DNA of 64,000 bases from Arsukibacterium sp. UBA5043 (GTDB lineage: Bacteria > Pseudomonadota > Gammaproteobacteria > Enterobacterales > Alteromonadaceae), in NCBI GenBank assembly GCA_002415085.1, contig DIBV01000017.1, forward strand, positions 361,818-425,817, given 5' to 3'. A program made the position numbers and the translations under genes. Below, in pieces: positions 4,332-37,107 of this stretch. The notes under the pieces are model-generated. The model was not told where the DNA came from, ran no database searches, and saw nothing but the letters and a program-made list of their open reading frames with translations. Each line of letters opens with the position of its first letter. Position 1 is the stretch's first letter.

Positions 4332-4410
4332 TGATAGATGACATCCTGTGCGCTGAAAGCCTTTAGAAACGGCGTGGATGGTAGCAGACCGCTATTATTG
4401 TGACAAGCAA

Positions 4411-5439
4411 TTAGCTTTGGAGGCAGTATGCCTGTACGGTTTTTACTAAACCGCTGTGTAAACTCTCAGTCGGCTGCCAGCCAAGTTCAGCATGTAATTT
4501 ATTGCAATTAATAGCATAGCGTTGGTCATGCCCCGGCCGGTCGGCTACAAAACGCATAAATTGGCGGTAACTCTGGCCTTTGGTTAATTTACAAAAGCCT
4601 GTTGGCGCCAGCTCATCTAAGATATCGCACAGTTTATGCACCAGCGCCAGGTTGGTTGTCTCATTCAAGCCGCCTATATTGTAACTCTCACCAATTCGGC
4701 CATGATTAAGCACCAGATAAAGTGCAGCTGCGTGATCTTCTACATATAACCAGTCGCGGATTTGCTGGCCGTTGCCATAAATAGGTATTGGCTTGCCCGC
4801 TAGGGCATTGTGAATCGTTTTCGGGATCAGTTTTTCACGGTGCTGGCCCGGACCATAATTATTACTGCAATTGCTGATAACAACCGGCAAGCCATAGGTG
4901 CGATGCCAGGCCCGCACCAGATGATCTGAGCTGGCCTTACTGGCTGAATAGGGGCTGCTGGGCGCGTAGGGTGTGGTTTCGTTAAATGGCGGATCTTCAG
5001 AGCCTAAATCGCCATACACTTCGTCAGTTGAAATATGGTGAAACCTGAATGCTTGCTGCCCGGCGTCAGATAACGTTTGCCAATAGTGTCGTGCAGCTTC
5101 AAGCAGGGTGTACGTACCTACTACGTTGGTTTGAATAAACGTTGCCGGTGCGTTAATAGAGTTATCTACATGGGTTTCTGCCGCCAGATGCATAATGGCT
5201 GTGGGTGCAAAGCTGGCAAAGAGATTTTGCAGCAGGTTTGCGTCGCAAATGTCGCCCTGCACCATCGTCACTCTGGGGTCAGCGTTGAAGCGTTCGACCG
5301 CGGTTAAATTAGCCGCGTAGGTGAGCTTATCCAGCACCAGCAACTGATGTTCCGTATGCTCAAGCAAAAAGTTAACCAGCGCACAGCCAATAAATCCCGC
5401 CCCTCCGGTAATAACTACCCTAAAATCACTCTGACCCAT
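4411..5439 (-). CDS. rfbB: dTDP-glucose 4,6-dehydratase
   Basis: 342 aa short-chain dehydrogenase/reductase enzyme catalysing the second step of dTDP-L-rhamnose synthesis. The Rossmann motif TGGAGFIG is at residues 11-18. [10 protein letters not shown] and [14 protein letters not shown] supply the catalytic Thr-Asp-Glu and Tyr-x-x-x-Lys. [12 protein letters not shown] and [10 protein letters not shown] are family signatures. The first five residues (MGQSD) are encoded by one copy of the GGGTCAGAGTGA repeat, which supplies the ATG. No clear Shine-Dalgarno sequence is seen in that repeat. It forms a cluster with rfbA, rfbC and rfbD. Confidence 0.95.
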
Positions 5440-5490
5440 TTAATTATTCACTCTGACCCTTTTTTAAGAATAACTTATTCACTCTGACCC
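5426..5490 (-). repeat. Three direct GGGTCAGAGTGA copies at the rfbD/rfbB junction
   Basis: TCACTCTGACCC occurs at 5426-5437, 5448-5459 and 5479-5490, all in the same orientation, spaced 22 and 31 bases. Unlike the other loci of this repeat, there is no inverted partner. The rightmost copy encodes the end of RfbD (GQSE then stop) and the leftmost encodes the start of RfbB (MGQSD). The repeat therefore fills the 35-base gap and both protein termini. Confidence 0.9.
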
Positions 5491-6365
5491 ATTTTCTGCA
5501 GACAGATGGCGAGGCTATGTTGCCATGGCGGCATACTAAGGCCAAGTTGTTGCGTTAATTTCTCACTGGACAACCCACTGTACACCGGTCGCTTTGCCAG
5601 AGCGGGCCACTGGTTACTGCTTACTGCAGCGACAGCGATATCGCTGCCGGTTAGGCTGACAATTTCCTGCGCCAGTTGATACCAGCTCGCCTGGCCCTGA
5701 CCCGCGCAGTGCAGCAGCCTGGTTTTGGCAAAGCGTTCAGCAAAGTTTGCTGCTGTTACCAGCTCAATACACAGGGCTGCCAGATGACAAGCGTAGGTTG
5801 GGCTACCTATTTGGTCATTGACCACCTGCAACGGTTTGCCCTGAGCGATCTGATTAACAATACTGCGGACAAAATTATGGCCAAATTCGCTATACAGCCA
5901 GCTGGTTCGCAATATTAATCCGGCTGGAGCGATATCGAGCATTGCCTGTTCGCCGGCCAGTTTGCTTTTACCATACTGATTAAGCGGTGCCGGCATGTCT
6001 GTTTCGGTATAGGGTTTTGTTTGCTGGCCGTTAAAAACATAGTCGGTACTAAACTGCAGTAATGCTGCGCCGCTGGCTCTGGCGAAGTCACTGAGCTCAG
6101 CCACCAACTTCTCGTTTAACTGCCAGGCAAGTGCTATTTGCTGCTCAGCCTTATCTACCGCGGTAAACGCACAGGTATTAATGATGATTGTTGGGGCATA
6201 CTGCTTAAGGCAGCGATTCAGCGCAGCGCTATCGGTAACATCCAGCTTATGGCGCGGGATAAAATAAAACAACTGACGAACAGGTTGTGGCAACAAAGTT
6301 ACCACTGCCTGAAATGCTTGTCCTAACTGGCCTGAGGCGCCCAGAACCAGGATCCGGTCAGTCAT
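5475..6365 (-). CDS. rfbD: dTDP-4-dehydrorhamnose reductase
   Basis: 296 aa, catalysing the last NAD(P)H-dependent step to dTDP-L-rhamnose. The nucleotide-binding motif is GASGQLGQAF near the N-terminus. INTCAFTAVDKAE, STDYVFNG, LNQYGKSKLAGEQ (Tyr-x-x-x-Lys) and ILRTSWLY are RmlD signatures. The start overlaps the end of rfbC by 8 bases, so the two are translationally coupled. The last residues MGQSE come from the intergenic repeat, which appears to have replaced the original 3' end without affecting the core fold. Confidence 0.95.
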   Translation of the reverse strand: MTDRILVLGASGQLGQAFQAVVTLLPQPVRQLFYFIPRHKLDVTDSAALNRCLKQYAPTIIINTCAFTAVDKAEQQIALAWQLNEKLVAELSDFARASGAALLQFSTDYVFNGQQTKPYTETDMPAPLNQYGKSKLAGEQAMLDIAPAGLILRTSWLYSEFGHNFVRSIVNQIAQGKPLQVVNDQIGSPTYACHLAALCIELVTAANFAERFAKTRLLHCAGQGQASWYQLAQEIVSLTGSDIAVAAVSSNQWPALAKRPVYSGLSSEKLTQQLGLSMPPWQHSLAICLQKMGQSE

Positions 6366-6933
6366 ATAAATTTTCGGAATATCTAAAATGAACGGGTAAT
6401 TCGCTTAGTAGCGGAAGCTGGCGGTCTTTTGCTGATAACAGCAGCTGAGCAGTGGGTAATAACCAATCAATGGCCAGTGCTGGATCAGCATAGTAAATAC
6501 CGCAGTCATCGGCAGGGCTGTAATAATTATCAACTTTATATTGCAACAAAGCTTGCGGGCTTAGTGTCAGATAACCATGAGCAAAGCCGCGGGGGACGAA
6601 TAGCTGCTGCGGTTTGTCTGCAGACAATTTGGTAAGCAGATGCTGGCCAAAAGTAGGGCTACCATGGCGAATATCAATAATTACATCCAGCACAGCGCCT
6701 TGCACTACCCTGACCAGCTTACTTTGGGCAAATGGCGGTTTCTGATAATGCAGCCCACGTACTACGCCTATTTTTGAAACCGCTTCGTTGTCCTGGATAA
6801 AACGCACGGGTTGGCCGGCGGCTTCATCCAGTTGTTCTTGCCGGTACATTTCACAGAACGCGCCACGCTCGTCGCGATGCGGTTGATATTCCAGCAATAG
6901 TGCGCCATCCAGGCTAAGTTTGCTAATCTTCAT
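6358..6933 (-). CDS. rfbC: dTDP-4-dehydrorhamnose 3,5-epimerase
   Basis: 191 aa cupin enzyme. The expected catalytic pair is visible: His62 in RGLHYQKPP and Tyr132 in LLQYKVDNYYSP. DERGAFCEMYR, VVQGAVLDVIIDIR and PRGFAHGYLTLS are family motifs. Length is usual (about 180 aa). It lies between rfbA and rfbD in the dTDP-rhamnose cluster and overlaps rfbD. Confidence 0.95.
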   Translation of the reverse strand: MKISKLSLDGALLLEYQPHRDERGAFCEMYRQEQLDEAAGQPVRFIQDNEAVSKIGVVRGLHYQKPPFAQSKLVRVVQGAVLDVIIDIRHGSPTFGQHLLTKLSADKPQQLFVPRGFAHGYLTLSPQALLQYKVDNYYSPADDCGIYYADPALAIDWLLPTAQLLLSAKDRQLPLLSELPVHFRYSENLYD

Positions 6934-6954
6934 ACACGTTATTATAGCTTCCTG

Positions 6955-7851
6955 TTATTCAAGCAGCTGCAGCAAATACTGGCCGTACTGAGTATTATCT
7001 ATTGCTGCAGCCAACGCGGCTAATTTGTCTTTGTTGATATAACCTGACTCAAATGCTATTTCTTCTAAACATGCCACTTTTAAGCCCTGGCGCTTTTCGA
7101 TAACTTCAATATAGGCTGATGCTGCCTGCAGGTTCTCGGGAGTACCGGTATCTAGCCAGGCAAAACCACGGCCCAGCATGGTTAATGCCAGGCGCTGCTG
7201 CATAAGATACTGCTGATTTAAGTCAGTTATCTCAAGTTCACCTCTTGCAGATGGCGTCAGCAAACGTGCTTTGGCAACAACATCGGCAGGATAAAAATAC
7301 AGTCCGGTTACCGCATAGTGGCTTTTAGGTTGCGAAGGCTTTTCCGCTATCGAGACCACTTTACCTGAGCTATCTACCTCTGCTACGCCGTAGCGCTCGG
7401 GATTACTGACCCGGTAACCAAATATTGTCGCCCTATCCTGCTGAACAGCCGCTTTCGCCTGCTGCAATAACGCGCTAAAGCCGTGACCGACAAAAATATT
7501 GTCTCCCAGAACCAAACAAACGGCGCTGCCAGCGATAAAATCTTCAGCGAGCGTAAAGGCCTGAGCGATACCATCGGACGACGGTTGGATGCAGTAGCTA
7601 AAACAGACACCAAAATCACTGCCATCACCCAGCAGGCGCTTAAAGGCGGCTTGATCCTCTGCAGTGGTAATGATCAGAATGTCACGGATCCCAGCCAACA
7701 TCAGCACTGATATCGGATAGTAGATCATCGGCTTATCGTAAATCGGCAGCAATTGCTTAGATACACCGCGTGTGATCGGATGCAAACGGCTGCCGGTACC
7801 GCCTGCTAACACTATACCTTTAACGCTGTTTTGTACCCTAGCCACGACCAT
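6955..7851 (-). CDS. rfbA: Glucose-1-phosphate thymidylyltransferase
   Basis: 298 aa, making dTDP-glucose from dTTP and glucose-1-phosphate. The pyrophosphorylase signature GGTGSRLHP lies at residues 17-25 and is followed by [31 protein letters not shown] and [15 protein letters not shown] are RmlA motifs. A few residues before the usual N-terminus (MVVARVQNS) may be dispensable, so the start is slightly uncertain. It is the first gene of the rhamnose cluster after the RAYT insertion. Confidence 0.95.
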
Positions 7852-7901
7852 GCTCGCCCCACACCAGAAATGCCCCTACAAAGCCGGCATCTTACCAAAC
7901 T

Positions 7902-7944
7902 AAAAAGGGTCAGAGTGATTTTAAAAATTACTCTGACCCTTTTT
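7902..7944. repeat. REP-like palindrome, left of RAYT
   Basis: A 15-bp perfect stem: AAAAAGGGTCAGAGT at 7902-7916 pairs with ACTCTGACCCTTTTT at 7930-7944, with a 13-base AT-rich loop. A-tract, GC-rich core and T-tract make it resemble a terminator in both directions. It precedes the RAYT start by about 60 bases. Confidence 0.9.
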
Positions 7945-8003
7945 TATTACCCCGCCGAATTTACTGCTATCTTTTATGTAACTTAAATTAACTTAATTTT
8001 AAT

Positions 8004-8696
8004 ATGCCACGTAGAAAGCGGTATCTGATAGCCAATATGCCCTACCATGTGGTGCAGCGGGGTCATAATCGTTGCAACTGTTTTTATGATGAAATTGATA
8101 AAGCCTGTTATCTATCGATATTAGAGACTTACCTGACAGCGTATCAGGTGCAGTTACACGCGTTTGTGTTGATGAGCAATCATGTTCATTTATTGCTGAC
8201 TGCAGGCAAAGAGGGTGTTATTTCAAACGTAATTCAGAACCTGGGGCGTGATTATGTGCACTATTTTAATAAACGTTATCATCGGGTTGGTACCTTGTGG
8301 GATGGGCGCTTTAAGGATAGTCTGGTTGAAACTGATCAGTACTTTCTGACGTGTCAGCGTTACATTGAGTTAAATCCGGTTCGGGCGAAAATGGTGGCCC
8401 ACCCGGCTGATTACCATTGGTCAAGTTATCATGCTAACGCCAGAGGTATAAAAATAAAGGTTATCACGCCGCATCAGGTCTATTTAAATTTGGCTGAAAC
8501 GTCAGAAAAACGTTTGGAAAATTACCAAGCATTATTTGAGGGTGGCTTGCCGGATCATGACTTAGAGTCGATCCGCGATGCTATAAAGCACAGTTACCCT
8601 TTGGCAAATGAAAGTTATATTCAATACCTTACTACCAAGTACAACATGCGTTTTGGCAGGCGAAAAAAAGGTAGGCCAGAAAAAGGGTCAGAGTGA
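8004..8696 (+). CDS. REP-associated tyrosine transposase (RAYT, IS200/IS605-like Y1 family)
   Basis: 230 aa. The Y1 transposase fold is recognisable from MPRRKRYLIANMPYHVVQRG at the start, the metal-binding His-x-His in LMSNHVHLLL (His60, His62) and RYIELNPVRAKMV (candidate nucleophile Tyr120). WSSYHANARG is typical of the RAYT branch. Members bind and cut REP hairpins as single-stranded DNA and are usually single-copy and domesticated. The last residues EKGSE plus the TGA are encoded by the right flanking palindrome. It is the only plus-strand gene in the polysaccharide block. Confidence 0.9.
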   Translation: MPRRKRYLIANMPYHVVQRGHNRCNCFYDEIDKACYLSILETYLTAYQVQLHAFVLMSNHVHLLLTAGKEGVISNVIQNLGRDYVHYFNKRYHRVGTLWDGRFKDSLVETDQYFLTCQRYIELNPVRAKMVAHPADYHWSSYHANARGIKIKVITPHQVYLNLAETSEKRLENYQALFEGGLPDHDLESIRDAIKHSYPLANESYIQYLTTKYNMRFGRRKKGRPEKGSE

Positions 8697-8722
8697 ATAA
8701 TTTATTCACTCTGACCCTTTTT
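8680..8722. repeat. REP-like palindrome overlapping the RAYT 3' end
   Basis: A near-perfect 43-base palindrome with 21-bp arms (8680-8700 and 8702-8722) around one central base. The core GGGTCAGAGTGA is at 8685-8696 and provides the RAYT stop codon. T-tracts on either strand make it a likely terminator both for RAYT and, from the other side, for the wbpO-type gene, which ends at 8732. Confidence 0.92.
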
Positions 8723-8731
8723 TGAGATTGG

Positions 8732-10009
8732 TTATAGCCTTAAATCGGCGTCGGCGGCATCGAGCAGGTATTTCAGGTCGTATAAAATATGCTGAGGCTT
8801 CGCCAGGGCTTTGATGCCCGTTGCGCCCATAGCGCGGAACTGCTTATGGGCTACGGCGACGATAATGGCATCGTAGCTGCCAGCAGCTGGCGTGGCAATT
8901 GGCGTAATGCCGTACTCATGCTCGGCCTCTTTGCTATCAACCCAGGGATCGTATACATCGGCGGTGACACCGTATTCTTTTAGTTCGCTGATAATATCAA
9001 TCACTTTGGTGTTGCGGATATCGGGGCAGTTTTCTTTGAAGGTTAGCCCCATCAGCAGTACTTTAGCACCAGCGACATGAATGCGTTTTTTGACCATGGC
9101 TTTGACCAGTTCACTAACCACATAGCGGCCCATGCTGTCGTTAATGCGCCGCCCCGCCAGTATCACTTCTGGATGATAACCTATTGATTGTGCTTTATGG
9201 GTTAAGTAGTAAGGGTCTACCCCGATACAGTGGCCACCAACCAAGCCTGGCCGAAATGGCAGGAAGTTCCATTTGGTGCCCGCCGCCAGCAATACTTCTT
9301 CGGTGTCGATATCCAGTTTATTGAAAATAACGGCCAGTTCATTGATTAACGCAATGTTGAGATCCCGCTGGGTATTTTCAATGACTTTGGCAGCTTCGGC
9401 TACTCTGATACTGCTGGCCATATAGGTACCGGCAGTAATAATGCTGGCATATAAGGCATCGACGGTTGCTGCGATAGCCGGTGTTGAACCGGACGTGACT
9501 TTTTTAATGGTCGTAACCCGATGCTCTTTGTCACCCGGGTTAATTCGCTCGGGGCTGTAACCGGCATAAAAATCAACATTGTATTTCAGGCCAGATACCC
9601 GCTCGATAACCGGGATGCAATCTTCTTCGGTCGCACCTGGATAAACCGTAGACTCGTAAATTACGATATCGCCCTGGCTTATCACTTTGCCCAGGGTTTC
9701 CGACGCTTTTATTAATGGGGTGAGATCGGGCCGGCGGTGCTCGTCGATAGGTGTGGGTACCGTAACAATATAAATATTGGCAGTTTTTAACTCATCCAGC
9801 TGATGGCTAAACTGCAGTTTAGACGCACTGGCCAGCTCTTCGCTGCTGACTTCTAACGTGTGATCGGTACCGTTTTGCAACTCGGCTACCCGGGCCTGGT
9901 TAATATCAAAACCCAGAGTCTGATAATGCTTTCCAAATTCTACCGCCAGTGGCAGGCCGACATAACCTAGACCAATAATAGCCAGTTTTGCATCTTTGAA
10001 CGCTGTCAT
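8732..10009 (-). CDS. wbpO: UDP-N-acetyl-hexosamine 6-dehydrogenase (WbpO/TviB type)
   Basis: 425 aa from ATG 10009, which has AAAGGAAAG just upstream. The open frame extends 20 codons further into the preceding gene, but that part is not family-like. The NAD-binding motif [17 protein letters not shown] is N-terminal. [20 protein letters not shown] holds the catalytic Cys. [20 protein letters not shown] and the C-terminal [16 protein letters not shown] closely follow Vi-antigen TviB. Such enzymes oxidise UDP-GlcNAc (or UDP-GalNAc) to the uronic acid. The neighbouring wbpP-type epimerase completes UDP-GalNAcA. The distinction from WecC rests on remembered family sequence. Confidence 0.88.
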
Positions 10010-10025
10010 ATCTTTCCTTTTGCCG

Positions 10026-11051
10026 TTATTTTGCTGGCTGGGCAATGTACCAGGGCATCGCCACGGCAATACCTTCGTTAATAGTATGGCTGGGTAAATA
10101 ACCCAGCATCAAACGCGCTTTACTCACATCGGCCTGCGAGTGGCGTACATCACCCGGCCGAAAATCGGCATATTGCGGACAATGCGGGTAAGCAATACCG
10201 TTACTTGCTAATGCCGTTTGAATCGCCCGAAATAATTGGTTTAAGGTGGTTCTGTCACCTACCGCCACGTTAAATACTTCACTTTGTTCAATGTCGGCCA
10301 ATGCTGCGCGCAAGTTAGCCTGTACCGCATTGGCGACAAAACAGAAATCACGGCTGGTTTCGCCATCGCCATTAATCACCACCTTGTCACCGGCGATCAT
10401 TGCCGCAGTCCATTTAGGGATAACCGCGGCATAGGCGCCGGCAGGGTCCTGACGCGGCCCGAATACGTTAAAGTAGCGCAAACCAATACTATGAAAACCA
10501 TAGCTGCGACTAAACACGTCAGCGTACAGTTCGTTGACATATTTGGTAACTGCATAAGGTGACAAGGGCTTACCAATATTGGCTTCTATTTTAGGTAGTG
10601 CCGGATGATCGCCATAAGTTGAGCTGGACGCCGCATACACGAAGCGTTTTACACCGGCGTCACGGGCGGCGACCAGCATATTCAGAAAGCCGCTGATATT
10701 AACATTATTAGTGGTAACCGGATCGGCCAGAGAACGAGGTACAGAGCCAAGCGCTGCCTGATGCAGCACATAGTCAACGCCATTTACTGCCTGCTGGCAA
10801 TCCGCGACGTTGCGAATATCGCCTTCAATAAAACTAAACCGCTGCCACTGCTCAGCACTTACCAGGCCTTGCACTTCATCTAAATTACGCTGATGGCCGG
10901 TAGCAAAGTTATCCAGACCGATAACCTGTTGATCTGCCTCCAGTAATGCCTGCAATAAATTAGAGCCAATAAAGCCCGCACAACCGGTTATCAGCCAGCG
11001 CGTGGCAGCAGAGCCAGGGGCTTTTTGTTTGATTATCTGACTAAAATCCAT
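10026..11051 (-). CDS. wbpP: UDP-GlcNAc(A) C4-epimerase (WbpP/TviC type)
   Basis: 341 aa extended short-chain dehydrogenase/reductase. [16 protein letters not shown] is the NAD site and [15 protein letters not shown] gives Tyr-x-x-x-Lys. [33 protein letters not shown] and [12 protein letters not shown] are diagnostic for the WbpP/TviC branch. It interconverts UDP-GlcNAc/UDP-GalNAc or their uronic acids. It is separated by 16 bases from the dehydrogenase and reads in the same direction, as in Vi-antigen and P. aeruginosa O6 loci. Confidence 0.88.
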
Positions 11052-11155
11052 TTCGGTGTATCCTTCTCGCGGCTACTAGCCGTTTATCGCGTTATTAAGT
11101 AAAGCATAACATGGCTGGCTAACTGAGTTAAACCTCTGTTTAGACCGTTAAAATG

Positions 11156-12292
11156 TTATTTATCCGCAGCCATATGTTGCTTTATAGCACTAACAATTCG
11201 CTGACAGGCTTTACCGTCGCCATAAGGATTATGGGCAAAGCTCATGCCCTGATAGTAGTCGTTGTCAGTGAGTAACCGGCTCACCTGCTCAACAATTTTC
11301 TGCCGGCTTGTTCCAACCAGCTTAACGGTACCGGCACTAACCGCTTCCGGCCGCTCGGTGGTATCCCGCATCACCAGCACGGGCTTGCCCAGCGAAGGCG
11401 CTTCTTCCTGAATACCACCAGAATCTGTCAGCACTATCGTTGCTTTACTCATCAGGTAAACAAACGGCAGATAATCTTGCGGCGGGATCAAATGCACATT
11501 ACTAACATCGCTGAGCAAACGATACACCGGCTCGCGGACATTGGGATTTAAATGCACCGGATAGACTATGTCGCAATCAGCAAAGGTTTTTGCAAGCTCA
11601 GCCAGGGCAGCACATATTTGTTCAAAGCCATCGCCAAAACTCTCCCGCCGGTGGCCGGTAACCAGAATTAAGCGCCGGCCATGCTGGCCATAAGGAAACT
11701 GCTTAGCAAAGGCACTGTTCAGTTTTTCATCCTGACCAATTTTATCCACTACCTGCAATAACGCATCAATAACGGTGTTGCCGGTAATCACAATGGTACT
11801 GGCAGCGACATTTTCAGCCAGCAAATTCGCTGCCGAGGTGTCAGTCGGAGCAAAATGCACACTGGTAATGGCGCCGGTTAGTTTCCGGTTGGCTTCTTCC
11901 GGCCACGGACTGTAGATATTGCCGGTGCGCAGCCCTGCTTCGACATGGCCAACGGCAATTTTTTCATAATAGCAGGCAAGCGCCGCGGCGAAGGTGGTGC
12001 TGGTATCACCATGCACCAGCACAATATCAGGCTGAAAATCACGTAGTACCGGTTTAATTTTCAGCAGAATGCTAGTGGTGACGTCATATAGATCCTGGCC
12101 GGATTTCATAATGGCCAGATCGTATTCGGGCTCAATAGCAAACAGGCTTAGTACCTGATCCAGCATCTCGCGGTGCTGGCCAGTGACACATACCCGGCTT
12201 TCAATTTCGCTATCGTCTTTTAGCAAATTGACCAGCGGCGCCATTTTAATTGCTTCGGGACGGGTGCCGAAAACACTGAGTACTTTAATCAT
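11156..12292 (-). CDS. wecB: UDP-N-acetylglucosamine 2-epimerase (non-hydrolysing)
   Basis: 378 aa. [14 protein letters not shown] at the N-terminus, [53 protein letters not shown] and [22 protein letters not shown] are the full set of WecB motifs. It makes UDP-ManNAc. AAAGGA lies 7 bases before the ATG. No WecC-type ManNAc dehydrogenase is recognisable here, so ManNAc may be used unoxidised, or a partner gene may lie beyond the window. It is the first polysaccharide gene after the mlaA boundary hairpin. Confidence 0.93.
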
Positions 12293-12318
12293 AGCAATCC
12301 TTTGTAAATCCGTTTAAT

Positions 12319-12371
12319 TCACTCTGACCCCTTTTATTGCTTTTGATTTCAGCAAAAAGGGGTCAGAGTGA
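12319..12371. repeat. REP-like palindrome between mlaA and wecB
   Basis: A 17-bp perfect stem with arms 12319-12335 and 12355-12371 and a 19-base loop. The arms are in the opposite order from the other copies: TCACTCTGACCCC comes first and GGGGTCAGAGTGA second, so the A/T tracts face the loop. The core has four G/C instead of three. It lies at the boundary between the ccm-mlaA block and the polysaccharide block. Confidence 0.88.
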
Positions 12372-12377
12372 TTTTAG

Positions 12378-13241
12378 TTATTGAAATTCGTCGAGGTAAT
12401 CAAGTAGCTCGTCGTCCAGCTCTTCTTCTTTGGGCTGAGGCGGATTACCGTCGTAAATTTTAAATTCCTGGCGCTGATAATATGACTCTTTGACAAAGGC
12501 GTAAGGGTCTAATGAGTCTTCCAGCATTTGCTCCAGATTCATCAACTGCTCGCGGCTATCCAGTGCATTGATGGCAAAACGGGTTATGGTCAATGGCGTA
12601 CTTAATAATGCCAGTGGAAAATATAAGCCATCTACCACGTCACCGGTGGTATCACGCAGCGTGGTTGGCCCACGGCCTGGTAACATTAAATAAGCACCAT
12701 CACCGACACCCCATACTGCCAGGGTTTGGTTAAAGTCTTCGTCCGTTTGCGTCAGACCAATTTTTGAGGCGACATCGAATATGCCCAGCAAGCCAACGGT
12801 GGAATTGACCAAAAAGCGTCCGGCACTAATGGCTGCACGGCCTGGCTTAGCCTGTAATAAACCATTTAAAAAGCTGGCGGGTTCATCCAGGTTCTCCACC
12901 ACGTTAATCAGGCCTTTTCGCGCTGGTTTGGGTACTACCGTCATATAGCCTACCGTAGCGGGCCGCAGCAGGTACTTATCCAGCACATCGTAGTTAAAAT
13001 CCCATAGTGGCCGGTTTATCGACTCCAGCGGATCGCGCGGATCGGCATACGCCGGGGCTTCAGGCTCTGCTGCCTCGGCCGCCACTACGTATTCGTTTTC
13101 GGCAGGGTTTTGCTGCTGATTAACCGCTGAGCGGGGGTCTACCTTACTGGCACAGCCACTGAGCAATAGCATTAAACTCAGGGCTACTGCGGTTAACGAT
13201 TGCAGTACCGGTAATCGAAAATTGTTGTTAAAAACTGCCAT
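12378..13241 (-). CDS. mlaA: Phospholipid-binding lipoprotein MlaA (VacJ)
   Basis: 287 aa. The lipobox LLLSGC after an N-terminal hydrophobic stretch marks an outer-membrane lipoprotein. DPLESINRPLWDFNYDVLDKY, FLNGLLQ, AGRFLVNSTVGLLGIFD, TLAVWGVGDGAYLMLPGRGP and DGLYFPLALL are MlaA signatures. It removes misplaced phospholipid from the outer leaflet in the Mla pathway. The acidic C-terminus (EEELDDELLDYLDEFQ) is a local extension. The start follows the ccmI stop after one base, so it is transcribed with the ccm operon, an uncommon partner. Confidence 0.93.
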   Translation of the reverse strand: MAVFNNNFRLPVLQSLTAVALSLMLLLSGCASKVDPRSAVNQQQNPAENEYVVAAEAAEPEAPAYADPRDPLESINRPLWDFNYDVLDKYLLRPATVGYMTVVPKPARKGLINVVENLDEPASFLNGLLQAKPGRAAISAGRFLVNSTVGLLGIFDVASKIGLTQTDEDFNQTLAVWGVGDGAYLMLPGRGPTTLRDTTGDVVDGLYFPLALLSTPLTITRFAINALDSREQLMNLEQMLEDSLDPYAFVKESYYQRQEFKIYDGNPPQPKEEELDDELLDYLDEFQ

Positions 13242-13242
13242 G

Positions 13243-14448
13243 TCAGGGTTCCAGAGTCAGCGCTACGCTGATTTTTGCATCGTTAAAAGTAAGGATATCA
13301 GATTCTACCTGCACATCGCCTGGCATTTGCTCTACAGTTCCAGCCTGTGACATGCGGGCTACCACTATTACCTGCTCTGCCTTGGCTAAGCTCCAGTCGG
13401 CCTGCATCGCCATTTTTTCGTCCAGCAGCAATTCTACTTCGCCACTGGGTAGCGGGATCCGTTGCACTGCCAGTGGCAAATTAGAGCCACCGACCGCCCG
13501 GGCGAATAAAAACAGACTGGCCTCAGGATTAGCCGCCGCCAGTTGCGGCGCTACTGTTAAGCGCACCCTGATTTGCCGGCCAATACTGGCAGTCGTATCC
13601 GCACCGAGCTCACTAAGCTTGCTAAGCACCAGCGGATACCTTGGATCATCTTGCTCCAGTTGCTCTGCCAATAAGCTCCAGGCTTTAATTGCTTCTGCTG
13701 TGTCGCCTTTGTCATGTGCTATTAACGCCATTAATGACATGGCATCGAGATTATCAGGTTCGGTTAACAGCACCCTGGCCACTGCGCGACCTGCCCGGCC
13801 CAGATTTTCATCGCCACCTACCACGATTAACGCCTGAGAGTAGTTCAACAGCAACGGAATGCGGTTAGGGCTAAGTGCCAATGACTTTTCAAACGCGTCG
13901 ATCGCGTCTTCCATTAATCCTTGCGACATCCAGATCCGGCCAAGCAGCATCCAGGCCACAGCATCGTCGCCATCATCGGCCAGCTTGGTGCGCAGGGCTA
14001 AAGCAAATAGCCGTGTTTCATGTTCAGATAATGGCTCACCCTGGCTCAGCAGGGCGCGTTCACCGTAACTTGCCAATTCGGTTTTGGCTAACTGCCAGTC
14101 GGCCAGTTGCTGGTAATGGCCATTAAAACGATAGGTTAATGCCACTACCACTAACACCAGTACTATTAACGCCAGATGCCATAAAAACTGGTGTTTCGGC
14201 TGGCGAAAACTGACGGTTTGCTGCTGTTGCTGATTAAACTGTTGTTTTAACTCTGCCGCAGCGCTGGCAAAGTCGTTTTCAGCCAGTTCACCACTGTCGC
14301 GGGCCAGCGCCAGAAGTTGCAAGCGCTCTTCAAATAACTGCAATGGAGTCTGGTTATTGGCCGCACTGGCTTTACGGGGCCAGCTGATAATAATGGCGCT
14401 AAGTGCCAACATTAACAAGGCAACCAGAAGCAGAGGCCATAACGTCAT
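13243..14448 (-). CDS. ccmI: Cytochrome c biogenesis protein CcmI (TPR)
   Basis: 401 aa. Two hydrophobic segments lie in the first about 120 residues (LWPLLLVALLMLALSAIIIS and FLWHLALIVLVLVVVALTYR). Tetratricopeptide repeats follow (AWMLLGRIWMSQGLMEDAID and similar), then a C-terminal periplasmic domain. CcmI delivers apocytochrome c to the CcmF/H ligation complex. It overlaps ccmH by 4 bases. Last ccm gene of the operon. Confidence 0.9.
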   Translation of the reverse strand: MTLWPLLLVALLMLALSAIIISWPRKASAANNQTPLQLFEERLQLLALARDSGELAENDFASAAAELKQQFNQQQQQTVSFRQPKHQFLWHLALIVLVLVVVALTYRFNGHYQQLADWQLAKTELASYGERALLSQGEPLSEHETRLFALALRTKLADDGDDAVAWMLLGRIWMSQGLMEDAIDAFEKSLALSPNRIPLLLNYSQALIVVGGDENLGRAGRAVARVLLTEPDNLDAMSLMALIAHDKGDTAEAIKAWSLLAEQLEQDDPRYPLVLSKLSELGADTTASIGRQIRVRLTVAPQLAAANPEASLFLFARAVGGSNLPLAVQRIPLPSGEVELLLDEKMAMQADWSLAKAEQVIVVARMSQAGTVEQMPGDVQVESDILTFNDAKISVALTLEP

Positions 14449-22530: not shown

Positions 22531-22854
22531 TTGGCCAATGATGATAAACAAACTAACACGCGCCAACGCAGCGCCACCGCATTAAAATATGACGGTAAAG
22601 CGGCGCCGACCATCGTTGCCAAAGGACATGGCGAGTTGGCAGAGGATATTATTGCGTTGGCAAAGGAGCACGGGGTACTGATTCATCAGGACGACGAGCT
22701 AAACCGGCTACTTAGCCAGTTACAATTGGGCGATAATATTCCCAAAGAGTTATATGTGGTGATTGCCGAGCTGATCGCGTTTTCATATGTGCTGCAGGGA
22801 AAATTTCCGGAACAATGGCAGAATATTCACCAACGAATTGATTTAAAAACTTAA
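22531..22854 (+). CDS. Stand-alone FlhB C-terminal-like domain protein (FlhX type)
   Basis: 107 aa from a TTG start with AAGGA 9 bases upstream (overlapping the stop of the preceding gene). ATALKYDGKAAPTIVAKGHG aligns with FlhB downstream of its NPTH cleavage site (compare VALKYDQGKFRAPVVVAKGVD in the flhB of this window), and ELYVVIAELIAFSYVLQGK aligns with the FlhB end. The NPTH site itself and all membrane segments are missing. It therefore mimics the cleaved FlhB-CC fragment. The stop codon touches a REP-like palindrome. Confidence 0.8.
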   Translation: MANDDKQTNTRQRSATALKYDGKAAPTIVAKGHGELAEDIIALAKEHGVLIHQDDELNRLLSQLQLGDNIPKELYVVIAELIAFSYVLQGKFPEQWQNIHQRIDLKT

Positions 22855-22927
22855 AAGGGGTCAGAGTGAATAAACTAGTAATTGCAAAGGGTCTGGGTGA
22901 ATTTTTTATTCACTCTGACCCTTTTTT
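22853..22927. repeat. REP-like palindrome between convergent genes, probable bidirectional terminator
   Basis: Perfect 17-bp arms, 22858-22874 (GGGTCAGAGTGAATAAA) and 22905-22921, with a 30-base loop. A-tract before and T-tract after give terminator-like ends in both directions. The left edge contains the stop of the FlhX-like gene (22852-22854) and the right T-tract contains the stop of the DUF2802 gene (22926-22928). It thus serves two convergent genes. Confidence 0.85.
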
Positions 22928-37053: not shown

Positions 37054-37107
37054 CAAAAAAAGGGTCAGAGTGATTTTTTATGGAAAATCACTCTGACCCT
37101 TTTTTTG
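37054..37107. repeat. REP-like palindrome between flhB and flhA, probable terminator
   Basis: A 24-bp perfect stem (37054-37077 with 37084-37107) around a 6-base loop, core GGGTCAGAGTGA at 37062-37073. It has A- and T-tracts of seven at its ends. It lies 11 bases after the flhB stop and just before the flhA sigma-54 site, where a terminator for the fliE-flhB operon would be expected. Confidence 0.88.

Follow-up and report, generated by a model that had tools for sequence, protein, structure and literature searches.

A RAYT gene of Arsukibacterium and local palindromes whose core is kept mainly where the gene is present

A RAYT gene in an Arsukibacterium genome is accompanied by palindromes built on one ten-letter core. 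The repeats are associated with the gene across genomes and crowd near it, the protein keeps its catalytic motifs, and the core is kept at fixed sites in species with the RAYT, whereas in two sister species that lack the gene it has largely decayed. We lean, with some reserve, toward a resident RAYT of the TIRYT type that copies and refreshes its own REP-like palindromes, mainly nearby. The window analyzed here is a stretch of 64,000 nt on contig 1 of a 3.88-Mb genome (G000), the nearest named relatives of which are Arsukibacterium.

The RAYT gene and its repeats in G000

The gene (8004 to 8696, forward strand) encodes a Y1 HuH transposase-like protein of 230 amino acids with NHVH and YIELNP motifs. 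The initial annotation had called a RAYT here from the letters alone, and the open reading frame indeed matches Pfam Y1_Tnp with 57.5 bits (cut-off, 23); the NCBIfam model REP_Tyr_transpos gives 71.2 bits, under its curated cut-off of 80. Residues H60, H62, Y120, N124, and P125 are unchanged in 40 of 40 aligned relatives. Compared with five named relatives, the protein is 76% to 89% identical, whereas fourfold-degenerate sites are 42% to 75% identical, as expected under purifying selection. A Pfam search with the last 98 residues found no domain at E values up to 10, and a sequence search of solved structures gave no more than weak similarity to three entries: 2fyx (E = 0.016), a galactokinase (E = 0.016), and TnpArep 4er8 (E = 0.022). 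The protein ends in EKGSE, and its last codons and stop (8680 to 8696) lie inside the downstream palindrome. On one side of the gene is what we take to be an rmlA-like gene and on the other a presumed ugd-like gene; the latter adjoins the RAYT in all eight genomes with an ortholog. The RAYT has probably been inherited in place. G000 also carries a second RAYT (C18:13963-14643), which is 49% identical and has type-B repeats adjoining it; of the only three exact copies of the type-B sequence GGGTCGGAGCTA in G000, two lie at this second gene.

Scanning the window for the core GGGTCAGAGT recovered exactly the 13 copies at six loci that had been reported for it, placed around the intact RAYT. With up to one mismatch there are 21 matches, compared with a mean of 1.83 in shuffled sequence, and none of 100 shuffles gave as many. 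The further claim that all six loci are palindromic stands for five, which fold strongly (-23.4 to -39.6 kcal/mol), and fails for site A (5428 to 5490, reverse strand), which consists of three same-strand direct half-sites and has folding energies of -1.3 and -12.2 kcal/mol for its two strands. Site A lies between two nucleotide-sugar genes, presumably rmlD-like and rmlB-like, and its half-sites encode the end of one open reading frame (MGQSE) and the start of the next (MGQS), with the stop in or adjoining the core.

No strand is assigned to the five palindromes. Site B (7902 to 7944) lies upstream of the RAYT and has the inner stem GATTTT; site C (8680 to 8722) lies over the 3′ end of the gene, has the inner stem GAATAA, and contains a 33-base center that is the same sequence beside the RAYT in six species. 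Site D (12319 to 12371) is an intergenic, inside-out palindrome between genes that we take to be wecB-like and mlaA-like. Site E (22853 to 22927) combines a palindrome with a third, altered half-site and has convergent genes on either side. Site F (37054 to 37107) is a palindrome in the spacer between two genes that, from their protein sequences, we take to be flhB and flhA; in two relatives this spacer holds repeats of other RAYT types. Across the window, Rfam returned nothing at the gathering threshold. Sites C, E, and F follow one another at intervals of about 14.2 kb (8685, 22858, and 37062), as they do in G004, G008, and G010; this spacing is probably a coincidence, inherited once with the same sites.

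The whole G000 genome holds 23 exact copies of GGGTCAGAGT, compared with one copy of a reversed-pattern control. Sixteen of the 23 fall in 98 kb of contig 1, including all 13 in the window. The seven on other contigs are about as many as expected at random (7.4 for the whole genome); five of them bear the 12-mer GGGTCAGAGTGA, for which 0.46 copies are expected genome-wide, so these cores look like real single half-sites. The off-contig GGGTCAGAGTGA copies are indeed single half-sites with the GATTT inner side. The five groups that do not flank the RAYT are all within 30 kb of it, one of them beyond the window (contig position 344602). The check for an excess outside the window, proposed in the initial annotation, therefore has a mixed outcome: the single half-sites are dispersed, but no palindrome lies farther than about 30 kb from the RAYT, which rules out an ordinary genome-wide family for the palindromes of G000. 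A lone core at G000:C1:442791, outside the window, lies at the end of an open reading frame (presumably flgC-like) ending in RMGQS and may be there by chance.

Crowding near the gene recurs in other genomes. In G019, a 50-kb radius around the orthologous RAYT takes in 7 of 11 type-A palindromes, whereas the same radius around a second RAYT, the flanks of which retain the core with a different inner stem, takes in none. Seven palindromes are of this second type, four near their own gene and one near the type-A gene. When the flanking pairs are set aside, the counts are five of nine for type A (P = 2e-6) and two of five for the second type (P = 0.008), in post hoc tests; of the 20 palindromes listed, two of other types (976217 and 989868) belong to neither group. 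G021 is less local: its four listed palindromes are the flanking pair and two elsewhere. In G002, 11 of 12 copies of GGGTCGGAGCTA fall in 14 kb around two RAYT-B genes, and in G015 all four exact copies of a third type fall in 6.4 kb around their own RAYT.

Two further observations concern elements associated with these repeats. On contig C9 of G002 (L249, 1816 to 15502), five near-identical 115-base elements have inverted ends of the RAYT-B type; all lie within 14 kb of the two RAYT-B genes and look like a local miniature element. Elsewhere, assemblies break inside palindromes beside TGTGGGGAT...CTCA ends, and an insertion sequence, which we take to be IS4-like, appears to insert in the core. 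Such breaks mark contig ends in G023 (C24 at both ends, C7, and C18), G027 (C9), and G004 (C14), at loci L090, L092, L096, L098, L100, and L101, and the two kinds of junction point to a duplicated stretch of about 10 bases that is identical to the core.

Association with the RAYT and core decay in species without it

The palindromes go with the GGGTCAGAGT-flanked RAYT. Among 31 genomes of the genus, the eight with a RAYT ortholog of at least 75% identity contain 8 to 27 copies of GGGTCAGAGTGA each, compared with 0 to 3 in the other 23 (Mann-Whitney P = 3e-6), and all eight have palindromes on both flanks of the gene. Equal abundance in genomes without the RAYT did not occur across these 31, and the proposed link between gene and repeats is upheld. 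We then surveyed Gammaproteobacteria with the palindrome pattern GGGTCAGAGTN{3,33}ACTCTGACCC and a reversed control. In 369 genomes, the palindrome was present in 26 and the control in none. A RAYT at E ≤ 1e-30 was found in 21 of these 26 compared with 94 of the 343 others (Fisher P = 9e-8, kinship ignored). The palindrome-bearing genomes without such a match are G154, G229, G307, G359, and G427; three of these have a weaker RAYT match and two have none.

Wherever alignment is possible, sites B to F occupy orthologous positions across the RAYT-bearing species of Arsukibacterium; site A does so in three of these species. At aligned orthologous sites in six RAYT-bearing species, 65 of 69 cores are exact (A, 8/8; B, 10/10; C, 12/12; D, 11/12; E, 12/15; F, 12/12), compared with 3 of 12 in the RAYT-less G001 and G006 (C, 0/4; D, 0/2; E, 1/2; F, 2/4), counts that are not independent and in which the decay claim rests on two losses. 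Comparison of G000 with its five RAYT-bearing counterparts over three genes gives a fourfold-degenerate identity of 0.40 to 0.65. For each site, we counted the best non-overlapping 10-mers with at most three mismatches. On visual inspection, we discarded seven three-mismatch matches that fell beyond the arms or in the gap separating them (two at A and one at B in G010, one each at C and D in G006, and one at E in each of G027 and G023). Site A in G004, G027, G001, and G006 and site B in G004, G001, and G006 were unaligned and uncounted. Site A in G010 aligns without a palindrome and adds 0 to the 69; site D in G001 (deleted) and site E in G006 (no match) add 0 to the 12. Site E is interrupted by a contig end in G027 and G023, and the uncounted site A region of G027 contains two changed cores (GGGTCTGAGT).

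In a tree of 13 genes (4,545 columns), RAYT-less G001 is nested among RAYT-bearing species, with support of 100 for its group with G004, G010, and G027 and of 83 for that with G010 and G027. RAYT-less G006 groups weakly with G023 (support, 52). Since G019 and G021 are RAYT-bearing outgroups, two losses are the simplest reading of the absence of the gene from G001 and G006; transfer of the RAYT gene is a possible alternative.

At the former RAYT locus, G001 and G006 have one hairpin each, with letters altered in both arms and pairing largely intact. Site D is a decayed relic in G006 and a deletion in G001, site E is a decayed remnant in G006 and has one exact and one changed core in G001, and site F is intact in G001. 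Hairpins that still pair despite changed letters indicate that some pairing can outlive the RAYT, whereas the letters mostly do not. A neighboring gene, presumably rmlA-like, is absent from this locus too in both RAYT-less species (G001:C1 near 384400; G006:C43 near 311200).

Maintenance of the palindromes and the flhB-flhA spacer

The spacer at site F was readable in 28 of the 31 genomes of the genus (G012 and G015 had no flhA within reach, and G013 was not fetched). Seven of the 28 have the GGGTCAGAGT palindrome, one has the RAYT-B type (G006), one has a third-type half-site (G022), and 19 have no such core. G006 holds RAYT-B, and the type-B 12-mer occurs three times in its genome, once at the RAYT-B gene and twice as the spacer arms. 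The third type occurs twice in G022, once in the spacer. In the eight spacer palindromes, 98.8% of cells are paired; 6 of 21 pairs have changed on both sides and none on one side only. A presumed sigma54-like promoter motif lies between site F and flhA.

Inner stems at site F switch among species (GATTT, GAATAA, and type B). In G010 and G027, the center is the exact 33-mer that adjoins the RAYT in all six species; in G000, G008, G001, G023, and G004, it differs from the RAYT-side sequence. The exact RAYT-side 33-mer is also found at further places in G027 and G023 (within the stretches fetched). Stem switching, together with a center equal to the RAYT-side copy, has the look of one copy having replaced another. 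The spacer may be a hot spot for targeting, may be rewritten in place, or may just keep any useful hairpin. One tentative possibility, which we doubt more than we credit, is that the RAYT is a palindrome-rewriting enzyme that homes in on palindromes already in place and writes its own type over them. If so, the palindrome type at a chromosomal hairpin site such as this spacer would be that of a RAYT present in the genome now or in the past.

Under the reading that we prefer, a resident RAYT copying and refreshing its own palindromes, the protein would bind to the core of hairpins in single-stranded DNA, probably at replication forks, and would cut and rejoin through its HuH/Tyr site, as in TnpAREP. 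Gene-side palindromes would be copied to nearby single-stranded DNA. Old palindromes would be good targets, so existing sites would be refreshed or re-typed. Many copies may double as terminator-like hairpins, which would account for the persistence of some pairing after RAYT loss. The passages of a study of group 3 TnpAREP that bear on recognition describe certain loop letters as necessary for it (PMC8266576), a precedent only. In the compared genomes, we saw no insertion junction, target site, or movement of repeats, and upkeep is imperfect even with the RAYT: 4 of 69 cores are altered and site A is missing in G010.

It is also conceivable, though unlikely, that selection simply keeps anciently placed palindromes, bound by the RAYT or a co-inherited factor and serving transcription ends, replication, or regulation of the RAYT's own gene, so that their upkeep would require no copying. 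Such selection would fit sites that are orthologous and old, arms that pair strongly, and the placement of 50 scanned palindromes, none of which lies inside an open reading frame of at least 80 amino acids and 19 of which lie between convergent genes (many of the 50 are one site seen in several species). Harder to reconcile with it are the switching inner stems at site F, where the center in G010 and G027 equals the RAYT-side copy, and the exact 33-mers at additional places in G027 and G023.

Another explanation, to which we give little weight, is that these are ordinary bidirectional terminator-like hairpins, the pairing of which is kept by template-switch correction of near-palindromes, and that the link to the RAYT is historical. 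The order of A-tract, GC-rich stem, and T-tract is what a terminator would have, and it is from this anatomy that a terminator function may be argued. The largely paired hairpins with both arms changed where G001 and G006 once had the RAYT also fit, as do the pairs at site F, of which 6 of 21 show change in both arms and none in one arm only. However, ten letters kept mainly with the RAYT and repeat counts that track the gene are left unexplained, and a terminator scan of 4400 to 13500 gave 14 hits compared with 10.7 expected, none at these hairpins. That the repeats are inert relics of an old local burst, with cores as neutral leftovers, is scarcely credible: most window sites are common to several species, but exact cores alongside fourfold-degenerate identity of 0.40 to 0.65 are unexpected for neutral leftovers.

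This small, countable family, with its fixed sites, two natural gene losses, and three RAYT types at one flagellar spacer, separates hairpin pairing, partly seen without the RAYT, from letter retention, seen mainly with it. It bears on what RAYTs do for bacteria and on how their repeats can persist for so long.

Relation to known RAYT systems

Matched flanking repeats around GGGTC[AG] were found at 77 of 144 RAYT loci, a set made up of the loci from the genus and class RAYT searches and 60 of the further class-search matches. Among loci with full flanks, 72 of 127 have a matched pair and 55 have none by the flank-pair test; a mismatched control, which joined the upstream side of one locus to the downstream side of another, matched in 7.5%. 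The inner stems vary by clade. GGGTC[AG] is a new core shared by the flanking repeats of this gammaproteobacterial RAYT branch, in which each clade has stems of its own. Pairing of the outer flank with the inner flank around the core is a trait of some clades only, and its statistics are mixed. In 45 half-sites, the observed stem length was reached by 3 of 1,000 permutations. Per 5,000 permutations, it was reached by 0 upstream and 336 downstream in 21 clusters, by 0 and 202 in 30 clusters, and by 143 and 1,614 in the 16 clusters of newly fetched loci alone; 14 of the 30 clusters have at least four upstream pairs.

The core falls outside the GTAG class, as the initial annotation had noted. A GTAG-type REP was considered and rejected: the GTAG at 8671 has no counterpart at the same position in any of the five named orthologs. 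The suggested distinct class with its own transposase branch is not new, GTAG-less terminal repeats with such a branch having been described as TIRYT/TIRtron and probably as subclass 2.1; the RAYT is probably of the TIRYT type and subclass 2.1-like. The sections of Di Nocera et al. (2013, PMC3733652) on TIRYT/TIRtron elements describe a RAYT-like gene between terminal repeats unrelated to GTAG, with moderate repeat families in some genomes, as with the Arsukibacterium RAYT. Their motif GGGGWSAS fits the GGGGTCAG of many relatives and, at 7 of 8 places, the AGGGTCAG of this RAYT. Repeats at this RAYT read AAGGGTCAG, with three G compared with four in GGGGWSAS; GGGGTCAG is found in many relatives and at site D. 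The present system differs from TIRYT as described there in three respects: many clades have a longer core, GGGTCAGAGT; full palindromes lie mostly near the gene; and orthologous sites allow upkeep to be traced through two RAYT losses.

The likeness to TnpAY1 subclass 2.1, as far as it is set out in portions of Quentin et al. (2018, PMC6006769), lies in NHVH and YIELNP, a length of 230 amino acids compared with a median of 238, and low copy number. A C-terminal HTH-like extension is a feature of that subclass, and Pfam recovers none in this RAYT. Those portions report no REP-like sequences near subclass 2.1 genes, whereas matched GGGTC[AG] repeats flank the 72 of 127 loci above. This little-studied subclass thus gains a defined candidate recognition core that is testable in vitro.

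In the part of the open-licence PMC literature that was searchable, we found no account of the GGGTCAGAGT core, of its maintenance at orthologous sites once the RAYT is gone, or of a single spacer with several RAYT types, and none of the listed matches to the 10-mer is on REPs by its title. Crowding is familiar: excerpts of Nunvar et al. (2010, PMC2817692) place palindromes near rayt in stretches of up to 200 kb in three marine gammaproteobacteria and Thauera and attribute the proximity to new copies arising near the gene. We liken our repeats to these on locality, not on repeat sequence. Vertical inheritance of RAYTs with retention of repeats is likewise known, from what excerpts of PMC8049555 relate. 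The classical REP/REPIN RAYTs of E. coli and Pseudomonas, as portrayed in parts of PMC8049555 and PMC8266576, also pair a domesticated, vertically inherited HuH/Tyr gene with cognate hairpins; unlike them, the system described here has no conserved GTAG foot, 23 cores rather than hundreds, and mostly local repeats. The general kind is known, and the pattern of core upkeep and loss looks new.
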